Source: Nitrosarchaeum sp. (GTDB taxonomy: Archaea > Thermoproteota > Nitrososphaeria > Nitrososphaerales > Nitrosopumilaceae). Taken from it: DNA of 62,044 nucleotides. The translations under genes were made by a program, and so were the position numbers. Where the stretch lies: assembly GCA_021414365.1 (NCBI GenBank), contig JAIOOR010000014.1:1-62044 (forward strand), given 5' to 3'. Under the pieces are notes generated by a model. The model was not told where the DNA came from. It saw only the letters and a program-made list of their open reading frames with translations, and did no database searches. Below are positions 1,382 through 9,327 of this stretch, piece after piece. The stretch's first letter is position 1; every line of letters starts with the position of its first letter.

Positions 1382-3013
1382 TTAGCAGATCTCCAATACC
1401 ATATTTTTCAATGAGTTCTTTACGCTCGGAATCAAGCTTGTCAATTTCTTGAGTCTCTTTTTTTTCATCTCCTTGATAGACGGAGTAAAATCAAGAGAAG
1501 AGTCATTGAATTTATCAAATCGTACAGTTGGTTGCTCTAGTTCCAAGACAAACTGTTTATCACAGCCACAGCTAGGTTTGTTTTCATCAAGGTTGGGACA
1601 TTTTGATTGAATAGCAAGATGTCTTCCTTTGGCATCCTTTACTTCACGTAATGCGCGAAGTCCTACTTTCATCAAAGCCGCTGCCACTTGTTTTGGATCA
1701 TTTAGATAAGAAACTCCAACTTGAACAGATGCCGGTACAAGAGCAAATTCTTTGGTATAATTAATTATCTCACTTGTGACAAGTTGTCTTGTGGGAACAA
1801 TTGCGACAGACTCATTTAATGGATGTTTGACATATGTCACACGAGAAGTGATTTTGTAGACTATTCCTTTGTATCCACTCGTTAAAGCAATTCTGTCACC
1901 TTCAACAAAGATTTTGTCTTTTCTTATCATAAGATAAGCAAAGTAGTTCTCAAATGTTTCTTTTAATGCGAAACCAACTCCAAGGGCAATACCTCCACTT
2001 GCTGTTGCTAAAACAAAGAGATCAATACCCCACCAAGCAATTATTCCTATAATAGCCCCAAGAAAAAATCCTAGAGGAATAAAATTTCTAAAAGGTTTTG
2101 GTAGACCTTCTCTTTTCTTTTCTGCATAACCTGGAGGTTTTGAACCTGGTATAACTGGCTCAAAATTTGCAACTCGTTTTTCTTCTGCCCAAATGTCAAT
2201 TTCATAAATCTCATCAGGCACTCTACCAGGAAGTAAAGGCCTACCCAATTCATTTTCTCCAGTGATGCAATCATTGTAATATTTTTCATATTTTTTTTGT
2301 TCTGATTTTTTCCATTCTGAGAATGGATCTTTTACTAGTTTGTGATAGCTGCCTATTCGTGAACCTCCAGAAGTGATGAATTTTTCAAGGTGTTCCCTAC
2401 CTTCTTTTGTTTTTAATAATTCCTGAAATTCTTGTTCACTAATGTCCTCAGGTGGACGTTTAGGTGCAATCCATTGGTAACACTTGTGAAACAAATCATC
2501 TTCATCATCTTTGAAACCATTTAATTCTAGCCAAGATTGAAAGTCTTGTTTTTCATACTTGAGTTTTTCTCCTTTCTCAAGCAGAATAGTTATGATGTGG
2601 CCAATGGTAAATACAATTACTAGTACATTCATAGAGTTTAGAAGTTTTGCAAAAGTTTCTCCGGCAGTTAGTTCAATGTTTTTTTGTTCTTGTAGAATCT
2701 CATTTGGATCATCAAATATTTCAAAAGTTTGAATGTAGATGTTAATTGTTGAGATTAGAGCTAGTGCGAGTATAGGCAGGACAGCCCTTCGAATTATCTC
2801 TGCAAGTATAGGATTACTGTAACTAAATTTTTTTCTTAGTGTCCATTGTCTGAATTGATTATAAGTTAATCCAAGTACTACTAGTCCAACTACTAAAATT
2901 GCAAATGCAATCTGTAGTGAAACTGAAGAGGTCAATAAATCTACCAAAGTTTCAATCTGTCCAGCAGATACTTGTGTTGCTTGTTCTTCTGCAGCTAGTA
3001 TTTCTCCTGCCAT
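1382..3013 (-). CDS. mscS: MscS-family small-conductance mechanosensitive channel (C-terminus probably frameshifted)
   Basis: The 543-residue product is an MscS-type channel that would release solutes on hypo-osmotic shock. An N-terminal membrane segment lies near residues 35-55, others near 75-95 and 125-145, and the pore helix with Gly/Ala packing (GGIALGVGFALKETFENY) near 340. The MscS beta domain follows (FVEGDRIAL, GIVYKI, VPTRQLVTSEIINYT). A hydrophilic insert of about 150 residues lies between the early helices and the pore. The last 30 or so residues look wrong for the family. One extra A in the run of eight A's (near 1468-1475) would give a better tail containing DSERKELIEKYGIGDLL and a stop at 1359-1361. 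I therefore suspect a one-base indel. Confidence 0.88.
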   Translation of the reverse strand: MAGEILAAEEQATQVSAGQIETLVDLLTSSVSLQIAFAILVVGLVVLGLTYNQFRQWTLRKKFSYSNPILAEIIRRAVLPILALALISTINIYIQTFEIFDDPNEILQEQKNIELTAGETFAKLLNSMNVLVIVFTIGHIITILLEKGEKLKYEKQDFQSWLELNGFKDDEDDLFHKCYQWIAPKRPPEDISEQEFQELLKTKEGREHLEKFITSGGSRIGSYHKLVKDPFSEWKKSEQKKYEKYYNDCITGENELGRPLLPGRVPDEIYEIDIWAEEKRVANFEPVIPGSKPPGYAEKKREGLPKPFRNFIPLGFFLGAIIGIIAWWGIDLFVLATASGGIALGVGFALKETFENYFAYLMIRKDKIFVEGDRIALTSGYKGIVYKITSRVTYVKHPLNESVAIVPTRQLVTSEIINYTKEFALVPASVQVGVSYLNDPKQVAAALMKVGLRALREVKDAKGRHLAIQSKCPNLDENKPSCGCDKQFVLELEQPTVRFDKFNDSSLDFTPSIKEMKKKRLKKLTSLIPSVKNSLKNMVLEIC

Positions 3014-3154
3014 TTACAATACACCGTGTCCTTTGAAGACGCTCACAGTAAAATATTGATTCTTATCATTTTTAAATCATTCAATTTAATTTTTAAAAAT
3101 AAAAAATTTTTGATTAAGGTTAACATTTAACAATGATGAAAAACAAGAATATAT

Positions 3155-4522
3155 GTGCAAAAACAAGATTCTGTGTGGAAAATTAATGAATCACCACGCA
3201 TCAAAAGTTATACTCTAGCAAATTTTCGAGAATTGCCTCAAATTCAAAAAATGGGTGTAGGAAAACAGTTTGAAATGGAAGTGGTTGGAAATGTTCTTCC
3301 ATTTAAGACAAATAATTATGTAGTGGAGCAATTAATTGATTGGAGCAACATTCCAGATGATCCAATGTTTGTTTTGACATTTCCACAAAAAGGGATGTTA
3401 ATTCCTGAACATTATGCAAAAATGGAATCGGCACTTAAAAGTGGGGATAAAAAACAAATTCAAAATACTGCAAATGAAATCAGACTCCAATTAAACCCCC
3501 ATCCAGCAGGACAGATGGAACTAAACGTTCCAACGCTAAAAGATGGAACAAAACTGTACGGGATGCAGCACAAATACAACGAAACATGTCTCTTCTTCCC
3601 AAGTCAAAGCCAGACATGTCATGCATACTGTAGTTTTTGTTTTAGATGGCCACAGTTTGTTGGAATGGATGAACTCAAGTTTGCAATGCGAGAAGGAGAA
3701 CAACTAGTTCAGTATCTAAAAGAGCATCCAGAAATTTCAGACGTTCTCTTTACTGGAGGAGATCCGATGATCATGAAGGCAAGAGTGTTTTCAACATACA
3801 TCAATCCATTACTTGAAGCAAATCTTTCAAATCTCAAAACAATACGAATAGGGACTAAAGCATTGGCATACTGGCCGTACAAATTCCTAACAGATGACGA
3901 TGCAGAAGAAATGCTCGACATATTTAGAAGAGTTGTAGACAAAGGAATTCACCTGGCATTTATGGGACATTTTAATCACATAGTAGAATTAAAGACAGAT
4001 GCGGTAAGAGAAGCAATAAAAAAAGTGCGCCTTACAGGTGCTCAAATTAGAACCCAGTCACCACTACTCCGTCACATCAATGATGACTCTTACATGTGGG
4101 CTGAAATGTGGAAGGCTCAGGTTCAACTTGGTTGTATTCCATACTACATGTTTGTTGTACGAGATACGGGAGCTCAGCATTATTTTGGCATACCTTTGGT
4201 TGAGGCACAGAAAATATTTCGAGATGCATACAAAAAAGTTACAGGTCTTGCAAGAACAGTAAGAGGTCCAAGCATGTCTGCAACTCCTGGAAAAATTCAG
4301 ATTCTTGGAATAACTGAATTAGATAATCAGAAAGTCATGGTGTTGAGATTCTTGCAAGGAAGAAATCCGGATTGGGTACAAATCCCATTTTTAGCAAAGT
4401 ATGATGAAAAAGCAATATGGCTTGATGATCTCAAACCAGTTACAGGGGACAAATTCTTTTTTGAAGAGGAATTAAAAGAAAAAATGAAGACATTGAAAAA
4501 TGAAGATTATCCGGAATCTTGA
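3155..4522 (+). CDS. KamA-family radical SAM/PLP 2,3-aminomutase, possibly acting on glutamate
   Basis: This 455-residue protein has the radical-SAM signature C155-x3-C159-x2-C162, the GGDP motif at 201-204 and a PLP lysine candidate at K380 in a degenerate PGK motif. These mark the lysine 2,3-aminomutase (KamA/AblA) family, which moves an alpha-amino group to the beta carbon. The two aspartates that hold the lysine side chain in clostridial lysine aminomutase appear replaced, by R336 and about S373 in my hand alignment. As I recall, glutamate 2,3-aminomutase also replaces them, by Lys and Asn. A beta-glutamate role is thus possible. The gene starts with GTG, because an in-frame stop lies at 3137. 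It is followed 79 bases later by glnA. Confidence 0.85.
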   Translation: MQKQDSVWKINESPRIKSYTLANFRELPQIQKMGVGKQFEMEVVGNVLPFKTNNYVVEQLIDWSNIPDDPMFVLTFPQKGMLIPEHYAKMESALKSGDKKQIQNTANEIRLQLNPHPAGQMELNVPTLKDGTKLYGMQHKYNETCLFFPSQSQTCHAYCSFCFRWPQFVGMDELKFAMREGEQLVQYLKEHPEISDVLFTGGDPMIMKARVFSTYINPLLEANLSNLKTIRIGTKALAYWPYKFLTDDDAEEMLDIFRRVVDKGIHLAFMGHFNHIVELKTDAVREAIKKVRLTGAQIRTQSPLLRHINDDSYMWAEMWKAQVQLGCIPYYMFVVRDTGAQHYFGIPLVEAQKIFRDAYKKVTGLARTVRGPSMSATPGKIQILGITELDNQKVMVLRFLQGRNPDWVQIPFLAKYDEKAIWLDDLKPVTGDKFFFEEELKEKMKTLKNEDYPES

Positions 4523-4601
4523 AGGTATGAATTTACAATATAGCTCAAAGAATATCACAAGATCACATTAGTAAGATGAGGAGAGAAATAAAAACGGAGT
4601 A

Positions 4602-6044
4602 ATGAATTCAAAGCAAATTTTAGAAAAAATTCACAAAGAAAACATTTCATTTATTGATTTTTGGTTTGTAGATATTTTTGGAGAACTACATTGTATGGGA
4701 ATGCCAAGTTACGCTTTATCAGAAAATGATTTTGATAATGGACTTGAAAAGCTTGATGCAAGCTCCATTGTGGGTTTTAGTTCAGTGAATAAATCAGATA
4801 TGATGCTAAAGCCAGACCCTTCTACATTTCATATCTTACCACCTGATTATGATTCTAATAGAAAAAATGCAAGAATGTTTTGTGATATTTTTGAGGGAAA
4901 TGTAGTAGAAGAAACTCGATTTAACAGAGATTCGCGAGGAATAGTGTCAAAAGCAAAAAGAAAGCTTGAGGAATTTGGATTGACACATACAATGTGGGGT
5001 CCAGAGATTGAATTTTTTGTTTTTGATGCAATCAATATTTATCCTTCTCCATATGGTGCGACTCATTCTTACGGTGGTTCGGGGTATTCCATTGAATCAA
5101 AAGAATCACCATGGGCAAAGGGAAATGCCAGTACTGCAATAGATCTCAAAGAAGGGTACTATCCATCACAGCCTAAAGATACACTTGGAAGTTTGAGAAA
5201 AGACATTTGTGATGATTTGTATCGTTATTTTGGCATCAAAGTTGAAGCAGAACACCATGAAGTTGCAACTTCAGGACAAAGTGAAATCAATTTCAAATAC
5301 GGTGAAATGAGTGAGATTGCCGATGCAGTGGTTACAATAAAAAATGTAATAAAAGTAAAAGCCAAAAAAAGAAATAAAGTTGCGACTTTTATGTCAAAAC
5401 CAATTTTCGGAGATAATGCTTCTGCAATGCACACTCACCAAAGTTTGTGGTGTGATGAGACAAACAGAATGTATGATCCAAACGATAAAGTTGCACAAAT
5501 TTCACAGGAAGGGCGGTACTACATAGGAGGACTATTGGAACATGCATCAGCATTATGTGCAATAACAAACCCCACAACAAATTCCTACAAGAGACTAGTA
5601 CCAAATTTTGAAGCGCCTGTGAATGTGTGTTGGGGATTAGGCAATCGTTCTGCTGCTATTCGTGTGCCAATGTATTCAAGAGATAATGAAAAAAGTAAAC
5701 GAATAGAGTATCGTGTGCCAGATCCTACAGCAAATATCTATTTACTTGAATCAGCACTTTTACTTGCAGGACTAGATGGAATCAAAAACAAGATAGACCC
5801 AGGGGATCATGTGGAAGAAAACGTCTACAAACTCAGTACAGAAAAGAAAAGAGAGCTCAACATAGGTTCCTTGCCTGCTTCGCTTAAAGAAGCACTAGAT
5901 TCGTTTCAAAGCGATATGAAATTTCTAGAGGATGTGTTTACTAAAGATTTTCTTGATGTATATGTAGAATTAAAATACAAAGAATATAGTTCATTTGCAC
6001 AAACTCCAACTGCCTGGGAAGTATCAATGTATACTGATGCATAA
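4602..6044 (+). CDS. glnA: Glutamine synthetase type I
   Basis: The 480-residue protein is a complete GS-I enzyme that makes glutamine from glutamate, ammonia and ATP in the cytoplasm, central to ammonia assimilation. Visible family motifs are GPEIEFF (metal ligand Glu), HHEVATSGQSEI, MHTHQSLW, NPTTNSYKRLVP (ATP and glutamate binding), NRSAAIRVP and EYRVPDPTANIY. I do not see the classic adenylylation loop tyrosine motif. The gene follows the KamA-type aminomutase on the same strand. If that enzyme makes beta-glutamate, this synthetase might also make the osmolyte beta-glutamine, which some archaeal synthetases do; this is inference only. Confidence 0.95.
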   Translation: MNSKQILEKIHKENISFIDFWFVDIFGELHCMGMPSYALSENDFDNGLEKLDASSIVGFSSVNKSDMMLKPDPSTFHILPPDYDSNRKNARMFCDIFEGNVVEETRFNRDSRGIVSKAKRKLEEFGLTHTMWGPEIEFFVFDAINIYPSPYGATHSYGGSGYSIESKESPWAKGNASTAIDLKEGYYPSQPKDTLGSLRKDICDDLYRYFGIKVEAEHHEVATSGQSEINFKYGEMSEIADAVVTIKNVIKVKAKKRNKVATFMSKPIFGDNASAMHTHQSLWCDETNRMYDPNDKVAQISQEGRYYIGGLLEHASALCAITNPTTNSYKRLVPNFEAPVNVCWGLGNRSAAIRVPMYSRDNEKSKRIEYRVPDPTANIYLLESALLLAGLDGIKNKIDPGDHVEENVYKLSTEKKRELNIGSLPASLKEALDSFQSDMKFLEDVFTKDFLDVYVELKYKEYSSFAQTPTAWEVSMYTDA

Positions 6045-6634: not shown

Positions 6635-8236
6635 TTACTTGGATTCCACTAATAGATTCATTATACTGTGATTGGTCACAATTCCAACTAGATTTTCATT
6701 CTTAGGATCAATGACAGGAATTATATCAAATGAATGTGAGTTCATCTTTTGAATTACTGAATAAAGATATTCATCAGGGGATGCAGAGTTAAATTTTTTA
6801 TTCATTGCATTTCCAACTGTTGTAACGTCATAAGTTTTCTTGTCGAATTTTTCTATTTCATGTTTTGAGATTATTCCCACAGCCTTGTTTTGTCCATCCA
6901 TTACTAGAAAAGATCTTTTTCCAAGATCATTTTTAGCAAGAAATTCTTTGATAGTCAAGTTTTGTGTCGTTTTTGGAAAATCTGTAACTATAACTGCTAT
7001 TGCAGGTACGTCAGAAACTACTTGTCTAAAATATGCAGGGATGAGCCCCAGCTCTAAAGTACCTACTTTGACATGAATGATTTTCTTTAACTTGCGTTGA
7101 AGTTCAACGCTGGAAATAATCATAACTATCAGAGTCCCAAGCACAAGCAATGAGAATAACTCATTGCTCAGAATTGCCACTTGTAACAAAGATAGCATCA
7201 AGGCCAAGTCTACAGCGCCCTTTGCCATTACCCCATAGGCAACAGTTGTTGCAGGACGCATCTTTGCAATTTTTACAGCAATGTAAGAGCCAAGAAACTT
7301 GACGCCAATCATTATTCCAAGAAAGCCAGTTATTACCCACAGTTCTAAATTAAGAAAACTAAAGCTAAAGTGAAGACCGATGCCTGCAAAAAATATCGGA
7401 ATAAAAATTCCATGACCAATAACATTGATGTTTTTGGAAATTTCAGAATACTCTATCTTGTTCATTCTAGATACTGCAATTCCTAAAAGAAGCGCACCTA
7501 TCGCACCATGAATTCCACTAACCTCTGCAAAATACGCTACAAGTAAAATTACTCCAATTACTATTGCAAAGTAGATTTGCTCAGCATAGAGATGTTTTCT
7601 TATTATTCGGAAGATCTTTGGCAAAACAAAAACAGAGAGTAGTCCTGCCACTGCAAAAAAGATGATCATTTTTACAAACAACCACAAAAAGTCTGAAACC
7701 TCTGGACTTGAACTTGAATTAACCTGAATTAGCACGCTTGTAATAATAATCGCTACAAATTCTACAATTGCGGTGACAGTAAAAATTTCAAGACCTATTG
7801 CAGATTTTAGCTTTCCAAGATCACTGAGTACCTTTGCAGTAACTCCAAGACTTGAAGATGCAATCACACTGGCAATAGCAAATGATTTTACAAAATCAAG
7901 ATCAAGTAATAAACCAAAAAAGCCCGCAACTGAAAAAGGGATCAGAAATGCAGCAATAGAACCTGCAAATATTCTTCCCCGCATTACACGGAACAGCCCA
8001 GCTAAATCAATTTCTTCAAGACCAATTAGGAAAAATAAGAAAAACACTCCAATAGAGGTAAAAATTTCTATCTCGTCAATTGGTGTGACAAGAGCAAAAA
8101 GAGCAGGACCAACTACAACTCCAGCAAGAACATTTCCTATAATTGTAGGCTGATGAATCCTATGCATTAATTCGCCAAATAGTTTTGCGGCAATAATCAA
8201 TACTGCAAGGTATAGAATTGCCTCAAAGACCATCAA
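6635..8236 (-). CDS. CPA2-type cation/proton antiporter with C-terminal CBS pair
   Basis: The 533-residue protein has about 12 hydrophobic segments in residues 1-385, in the pattern of Kef/NapA antiporters. It includes the N-terminal AKLFGELMHRIHQPTIIGNVLAG signature and a long Ala/Ile-rich core. It exchanges Na+ or K+ for protons across the membrane. The soluble C-terminus (about 395-533) holds two CBS motifs, FLVMDGQNKAVGIIS and IIPVIDPKNENLVGIVT, which in this family bind adenosine nucleotides and gate transport. A four-CBS protein lies immediately upstream on the same strand, so the two may be co-expressed. The transported ion cannot be told from sequence. Confidence 0.9.
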   Translation of the reverse strand: MMVFEAILYLAVLIIAAKLFGELMHRIHQPTIIGNVLAGVVVGPALFALVTPIDEIEIFTSIGVFFLFFLIGLEEIDLAGLFRVMRGRIFAGSIAAFLIPFSVAGFFGLLLDLDFVKSFAIASVIASSSLGVTAKVLSDLGKLKSAIGLEIFTVTAIVEFVAIIITSVLIQVNSSSSPEVSDFLWLFVKMIIFFAVAGLLSVFVLPKIFRIIRKHLYAEQIYFAIVIGVILLVAYFAEVSGIHGAIGALLLGIAVSRMNKIEYSEISKNINVIGHGIFIPIFFAGIGLHFSFSFLNLELWVITGFLGIMIGVKFLGSYIAVKIAKMRPATTVAYGVMAKGAVDLALMLSLLQVAILSNELFSLLVLGTLIVMIISSVELQRKLKKIIHVKVGTLELGLIPAYFRQVVSDVPAIAVIVTDFPKTTQNLTIKEFLAKNDLGKRSFLVMDGQNKAVGIISKHEIEKFDKKTYDVTTVGNAMNKKFNSASPDEYLYSVIQKMNSHSFDIIPVIDPKNENLVGIVTNHSIMNLLVESK

Positions 8237-8293
8237 TTAAACTTCAAATCATAAGCTCATATCAGTTTCGAAATTAGGATAATAAGATTTTAT

Positions 8294-9106
8294 TTAGCCG
8301 GAAATATATTCACTGAGATCATTCAAGTATGGGTTGGTAACAGTGTAAACACTCTGATATGCATCAACTATATCTCTAGCAGTTACAACATGAACCAACA
8401 AGCCATCTTTTACAAGACCCAACCTTTTGATGTCTTTTGATGCCATTATGCTTGCTGCATCATGCACATTGATTCCCTCATTTGCAACAACCAATGGCGA
8501 TGAGGAGTGTTGACCAACTGAGTCATGAAGATTAGATGAAGAAGCAAGATGTATCAAGAGATCACGCTCGGTAAAAATCCCATAGCCTTTCATATCACCT
8601 ACGATTATGCTGCCAATTCTTTTTTCATGTAATTTTTTTACTACCTCATAAATCGAATCTGAAGACTTGCATTTTTCAACGGTAGAGCCAACAACGTCAT
8701 CTAAAGATAAATCACTTTTTGTCTTTCTAAATGCCCGCATCAAATCGGTAACCGTGACAATTCCTACAAGTTTGTCTCCATCAAAAACCAACAATCTGGA
8801 TTTTTTTCTTATCATTTGATGTGCAGCATCCAAAACGGTATGCCCCAAGGACAATCTAACATATGGCTGCCATCCTGCATCTTGGACTGTTAATTTATTG
8901 ACATCTTTTGAATCTGCAATTACCTTTAAAATTTCTCGTTCTGTTAGAATGCCTTTTGGAATTGTTCCGTCACTGACAATTAAATTCCCAAATCCCTTAT
9001 CCACCATGAAATTGATTGCTTTTATTAGTGGCACTTTTGGTTCAACGGATATTGGATATGCAGTCATATAGTTAGAAATTGGAAGATTTGTAATTTTTAA
9101 CCCCAT
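8294..9106 (-). CDS. Four-CBS-domain protein
   Basis: Four CBS motifs follow each other (NLIVSDGTIPKGILTEREIL, LLVFDGDKLVGIVTVTDLM, SIIVGDMKGYGIFTERDLL and LGLVKDGLLVHVVTARDIV), forming two Bateman modules with no other domain. Such proteins sense adenine nucleotides or SAM and regulate a partner; the antiporter gene 58 bases downstream is an obvious candidate. An upstream in-frame ATG at 9148 would add a 14-residue hydrophobic leader that does not belong to the fold, so I prefer the ATG at 9106 (MGLKITNLPISNYM). Confidence 0.85.
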   Translation of the reverse strand: MGLKITNLPISNYMTAYPISVEPKVPLIKAINFMVDKGFGNLIVSDGTIPKGILTEREILKVIADSKDVNKLTVQDAGWQPYVRLSLGHTVLDAAHQMIRKKSRLLVFDGDKLVGIVTVTDLMRAFRKTKSDLSLDDVVGSTVEKCKSSDSIYEVVKKLHEKRIGSIIVGDMKGYGIFTERDLLIHLASSSNLHDSVGQHSSSPLVVANEGINVHDAASIMASKDIKRLGLVKDGLLVHVVTARDIVDAYQSVYTVTNPYLNDLSEYISG

Positions 9107-9327
9107 AAATAAGAAAAGTAGAAAACAGTATTTGATGAGTTGTGTCAAATATCAAATATGATAATTCATCCATTTTTCAAATAAATCAACTGTAAAATCC
9201 AAACTCTGATAAAAGTGAATTAAGAAATTTGATTGGTATAACAGTGATTCAAAAACCACTTCTAAGAAAGAAGTTTAGTGGTTAAATATTACAAGCGCCA
9301 ATAACTATCGAAATTCATAAGGTCCAA

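Follow-up and report, generated by a model that had tools for sequence, protein, structure and literature searches.

An arginine-type KamA aminomutase linked to a second glutamine synthetase and a mechanosensitive channel is a candidate source of beta-glutamate in ammonia-oxidising archaea

In lysine 2,3-aminomutase (LAM; KamA/AblA), SAM is cleaved at a [4Fe-4S] cluster to give a 5'-deoxyadenosyl radical, which abstracts hydrogen from C3 of the substrate-PLP aldimine; the substrate radical then rearranges via an azacyclopropylcarbinyl intermediate. Lysine is bound by two aspartates, D293 and D330. Glutamate 2,3-aminomutase reportedly has Lys and Asn at these positions, and in the Clostridioides-type enzyme (model TIGR04368) the residue at the D293 position is presumably Lys332. 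In methanogens, the AblA-AblB pair combines a KamA-family aminomutase with an acetyltransferase to yield the beta-amino-acid osmolyte N-epsilon-acetyl-beta-lysine. Formation of beta-glutamine by a glutamine synthetase is known in Methanohalophilus, and labelling showed that methanogens do not derive their beta-glutamate from an aminomutase reaction (reviewed in PMC1224877). The archaeal precedent therefore covers only the second step, that of the glutamine synthetase.

Few kinds of cell in the ocean outnumber the marine ammonia-oxidising archaea. Of the metabolites identified in Nitrosopumilus maritimus SCM1, beta-glutamic acid is the most abundant, reaching 730 mM inside the cell (Heal et al. 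2021, PMC8269262). A 2024 study states that ectoine synthesis is encoded in only a few of these archaea and that alternative osmolytes had not been identified (PMC11428151). The part of the literature that we searched yielded no gene proposed for beta-glutamate synthesis in these archaea, no paper tying an aminomutase to the compound in them and no report of beta-glutamine from them.

We analysed a 62,044-bp stretch of Nitrosarchaeum sp. DNA (contig JAIOOR010000014.1, here called the window) that carries a KamA-type gene followed, after a gap of 79 bp, by a glutamine synthetase gene (GS2). With a probability of roughly 0.7, we propose that the KamA-type protein is a glutamate 2,3-aminomutase of a separate lineage making the osmolyte beta-glutamate, that GS2 amidates part of it to beta-glutamine, and that the adjacent MscS-type channel serves for venting. 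The features of the locus are as follows.

1382-3013, minus strand: MscS-type mechanosensitive channel, divergent neighbour of KamA (PF00924, 30.7 bits against a gathering score of 20.2)
3014-3154, no strand: divergent intergenic region of 141 bp, containing the TAACnTTTAACAA element (alignment of 8 loci)
3155-4522, plus strand: KamA-type radical SAM/PLP aminomutase, 455 aa, proposed glutamate 2,3-aminomutase (profile, alignment and fold evidence)
3617-3640, plus strand: radical-SAM CxxxCxxC motif (C155, C159, C162), invariant in a 35-row alignment
4160-4162, plus strand: codon of R336 (CGA), in the LAM D293 column, invariant in 35 homologs
4271-4273, plus strand: codon of S373 (AGC), in the LAM D330 column, S/V/I in homologs and not conserved
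4292-4294, plus strand: codon of K380, the PLP lysine (LAM K337), invariant in the 35-row alignment
4602-6044, plus strand: GS2, second type I glutamine synthetase, with beta-glutamate as its proposed substrate (TIGR00653, 513.7 bits against a cut-off of 429)
5415-5432, plus strand: N-A-S-A-M-H motif of GS2, N-G-S-G-M-H in Salmonella glutamine synthetase (alignment)

The KamA open reading frame starts with GTG, in place of which close relatives have ATG. The TAACnTTTAACAA element lies 18-40 nt upstream of this start and recurs in most of the relatives aligned (8 loci); it is perhaps the promoter. The only PDB match of the protein by phmmer was LAM (2a5h, E 9e-16). LAM 2a5h was also the best fold match of the AlphaFold model (pLDDT 89.4), with an E value of 8e-17 that placed it far ahead of other solved structures. 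In a MAFFT alignment with annotated LAMs (Bacillus velezensis AblA and Ilyobacter AblA), EpmB and a viomycin-type aminomutase, the protein keeps the C155xxxC159xxC162 cluster motif, the PLP lysine K380 and R164. The last of these corresponds to LAM R134, which we take to be the residue that binds the substrate carboxylate. Cluster motif, PLP lysine and LAM-like fold together identify a KamA-type enzyme. Two additional residues precede the first cysteine relative to LAM, and LAM R116, presumably a ligand of the PLP phosphate, is replaced by threonine.

The protein departs from LAM in the substrate pocket. The two lysine-binding aspartates are both absent, D293 being replaced by R336 and D330 by S373, as a sequence-only reading of this DNA had held; the spacing from S373 to K380 is 7 residues, exactly that between LAM D330 and K337. 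That reading had taken the Arg/Ser pair together as the basis of specificity, and of the two residues the arginine has stood up. R336 is unchanged across 35 homologs with identities down to 35%, so its presence is no accident. Within the clade, position 373 varies between S, V and I, neither invariant nor close to it, so only the arginine half of the pair is diagnostic, and we rejected S373 as part of a specificity signature. An invariant arginine in the side-chain pocket suits a substrate with a terminal side-chain carboxylate and speaks against lysine. That the enzyme is nonetheless a lysine 2,3-aminomutase, making beta-lysine or N-acetyl-beta-lysine as the osmolyte despite these substitutions, is in keeping with LAM being the closest solved structure and with N-acetyl-beta-lysine being a common archaeal osmolyte (PMC1224877). 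We consider this very improbable, given that both aspartates are missing and one has become an invariant arginine that would repel the amine, that the protein scores 92.3 bits on the LAM model TIGR03820 against a cut-off of 525.4, and that the conserved partner is a glutamine synthetase rather than a beta-lysine acetyltransferase. The likeness to AblA-AblB, a KamA-family aminomutase and a second enzyme leading to a beta-amino-acid osmolyte, comes with a different partner and a charge-reversed pocket.

Profile scores place the protein outside the modelled families. It is homologous to the NCBIfam KamA subfamily TIGR00238 but scores 119.9 bits, below the cut-off of 199.2; the arginine 2,3-aminomutase model also matches weakly, far below its curated cut-off. 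On the glutamate 2,3-aminomutase model TIGR04368 its 76.6 bits fall far short of the cut-off (650) and even of the 502 bits that an annotated LAM attains there, which puts the protein in a clade separate from the known glutamate 2,3-aminomutase family. It shares with the TIGR04368 enzyme the proposed substrate and reaction and a basic residue at the D293 position. It differs in having Arg where Lys is expected, and Ser, Val or Ile where Asn is expected. No glutamate 2,3-aminomutase above the TIGR04368 cut-off was found in the host genome, 8 bacterial genomes or 4 plasmid-collection records, or by tblastn of plasmids. In a tree, whose long branches make deep placements uncertain, the archaeal sequences form one group (100/96) whose neighbour is a Gemmatimonadota sequence (90/88); both lie within the bacterial homologs, and LAM and EpmB branch elsewhere. 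At 52-67% identity, homologs are found in Chloroflexota, Bacteroidota, Balneolota, Gemmatimonadota and Pseudomonadota; the phage relatives found were all distant, at 28% identity or less.

The bacterial homologs sit in contexts different from the archaeal one, nonribosomal peptide synthetase (NRPS) and apparently catabolic clusters included, and we found no MscS genes beside them. This counts against our explanation, and the clade may include other substrates, for example 2-aminoadipate. A branch at 35% identity that keeps R336 lies in an operon (L070:7743-13520, L071:2754-8730 and L072:7602-13243) with 3-oxoacid CoA-transferase subunits A and B, a class III aminotransferase and a 3-oxoadipyl-CoA thiolase that scores above its cut-off. 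The operon possibly encodes the breakdown of 2-aminoadipate (or glutamate) via the beta-amino to the beta-keto acid. If the archaeal enzyme were likewise a 2,3-aminomutase acting on a dicarboxylic amino acid other than glutamate, above all one turning 2-aminoadipate into 3-aminoadipate, the arginine would serve a longer side chain, and this operon, which fits catabolism of 2-aminoadipate to 3-oxoadipate, would be its main support. We regard that as improbable: the branch is distant, the archaea lack its operon and have the gene linked to a glutamine synthetase, and the compound reported in SCM1 is beta-glutamate.

Other bacterial contexts are biosynthetic in appearance. On a Rhodococcus plasmid (L117:7992-14798), the homolog accompanies a SidA-type monooxygenase, a cupin and class I tRNA-ligase-like and saccharopine-dehydrogenase-like proteins, a cluster that resembles the N-N bond-forming clusters of pyrazofurin/formycin biosynthesis. 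Homologs also lie beside NRPS genes in Mycetohabitans rhizoxinica (L107:1-13356) and near an adenylation-domain protein and a type III PKS in Streptomyces cellulosae (L108:1-13221). A beta-amino acid building block is a possible product of the last two.

Among the archaeal genomes sampled, the gene falls in one family and travels with its neighbours. The relatives by KamA sequence are Nitrosopumilales (treated here as Nitrosopumilaceae), and all 85 KamA matches in a 200-genome sample of the class fall within Nitrosopumilaceae. KamA is present, always as a single copy, in 97 of 151 genomes of the family. An MscS ortholog occurs in 86 of the 151, 85 of which have KamA, and in 78 it is no more than 600 bp from KamA; PF00924 is above its gathering score also in the MscS orthologs of a 1,645,259-bp genome and of loci L003 and L054. 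GS2 orthologs, defined by at least 55% identity to the window's glutamine synthetase, are found in 62 genomes, every one of them KamA-positive, and 35 of the 97 KamA-positive genomes are without GS2. In 12 of the 62, GS2 is not adjacent to KamA, being a few genes off in some and hundreds of kb away or on another contig in others. Fisher tests of co-occurrence, which ignore kinship, gave 9e-28 and 2e-17. The window's own genus provides cleaner evidence, as six of its genomes have all three genes and 12 have none. The 1,645,259-bp genome, which from its length we take to be that of N. maritimus SCM1, carries the GS2-KamA-MscS block at 77%, 77% and 56% identity, respectively.

KamA is gained and lost jointly with MscS and GS2, which speaks for a metabolite. 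This bears on another reading, in which the enzyme would act on a protein-bound residue like EpmB, another KamA-family member whose model TIGR03821 matches the protein similarly weakly (96.7 bits, cut-off 369.3). EpmB serves EF-P, which archaea are not known to have, and efp, sought as in the E. coli-type EpmB context, was not among the conserved neighbours of kamA. We therefore hold action on a protein-bound residue to be extremely improbable.

In one genus (g17), the usual MscS ortholog is absent, and a different small MscS protein (PF00924, 74 bits) with an adjoining DUF432 gene lies between KamA and GS2 (L163:8889-12204, L166:3082-7761); DUF432 may have a linked role. The presence of two different mechanosensitive channels beside the same aminomutase points to a solute that needs venting on dilution. 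Three single-contig genomes of another genus, g12, have an amino acid permease near the KamA block (L157:3820-5139, L158:6606-7901, L159:1621-2916). It is of the APC type, as Pfam shows for L157, and in all three one gene for a small exported-looking protein separates it from the block; the permease could transport the product. Downstream of GS2 in the window are a response regulator, a Na+/H+ exchanger with a CBS domain and a four-CBS protein. The exchanger and the four-CBS protein (6635-9148, minus strand) add to an ion- and osmo-related neighbourhood. Proteome charge, a crude proxy of halophily taken from a small, non-orthologous sample, showed no difference in the expected direction between genomes with and without KamA.

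GS2 is one of two glutamine synthetases in the 1.88-Mb host assembly, which share 45% identity and accompany a single KamA. Besides scoring above the TIGR00653 cut-off, it retains the usual catalytic residues of a type I glutamine synthetase, bearing out the earlier identification of the gene that follows KamA. The canonical N-G-S-G-M-H loop, which lies at the amino end of bound glutamate, is N-A-S-A-M-H in 38 of 38 GS2 rows, some of which represent the same gene. Such a change would suit an isomer whose amino group is one carbon further along, but falls short of proof. The main glutamine synthetase of the host (L076:1447-2901) has A-G-S-G-M-H, with Ala for the Salmonella Asn, and both archaeal enzymes thus depart from the usual motif; we rejected the motif change by itself as proof of a new substrate because the main enzyme is also non-canonical there. 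A search for GS2-like genes on plasmids, with E up to 1e-100, found none.

These features also bear on whether GS2 takes part in the pathway at all. KamA could make beta-glutamate while GS2 is an ordinary extra ammonium-assimilating glutamine synthetase that merely travels with the block, as might be expected from its full set of catalytic residues, its score above the GlnA cut-off, the 35 KamA-positive genomes that manage without it and the off-canonical A-G-S-G of the main enzyme. The confinement of GS2 to KamA-positive genomes, 12 of which have it away from KamA, and the N-A-S-A change in every GS2 row speak the other way, and we judge the ordinary role unlikely, if a serious contender. Amidation of beta-glutamate by GS2 would resemble the beta-glutamine-forming glutamine synthetase of Methanohalophilus portucalensis (PMC1224877), with the differences that beta-glutamate there is thought not to be of aminomutase origin and that the GS2 activity here is putative.

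In the proposed pathway, KamA would isomerise L-glutamate to beta-glutamate by the LAM radical mechanism, the amino group passing from C2 to C3. Of the two carboxylates of glutamate, the gamma (side-chain) one would bind to R336, the residue in place of LAM Asp293, and the alpha one to R164. Beta-glutamate would build up as a compatible solute, GS2, where present, would amidate part of it to the neutral (zwitterionic) beta-glutamine, and the adjacent MscS-type channel would release solutes on dilution or hypo-osmotic shock. The sequence-only reading had suggested a glutamate-acting KamA that feeds a beta-glutamine route, and its two halves fare differently. The conversion of glutamate to beta-glutamate, which we infer, is well supported by the invariant, charge-reversed arginine, the linkage to two kinds of mechanosensitive channel and the block in the presumed genome of SCM1 with its 730 mM of the compound. 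The beta-glutamine half is plausible but weaker: GS2 keeps company with KamA in 62 of 62 genomes and carries the altered motif, but many KamA-positive genomes do without it and our literature search returned no beta-glutamine from these archaea.

A candidate gene makes the origin of beta-glutamate in these archaea directly testable. If the proposal is right, the gene would serve to mark an abundant, nitrogen-rich solute in genomes, and glutamate 2,3-aminomutases would gain a second lineage. More tentatively, and at somewhat less than even odds in our estimation, an independently evolved arginine-type glutamate 2,3-aminomutase outside TIGR04368 and a beta-glutamate-specific glutamine synthetase may constitute an undescribed osmolyte pathway of ammonia-oxidising archaea that comes and goes as a unit with a mechanosensitive channel, with the bacterial arginine-type enzymes serving an unexplored metabolism of beta-amino dicarboxylates.
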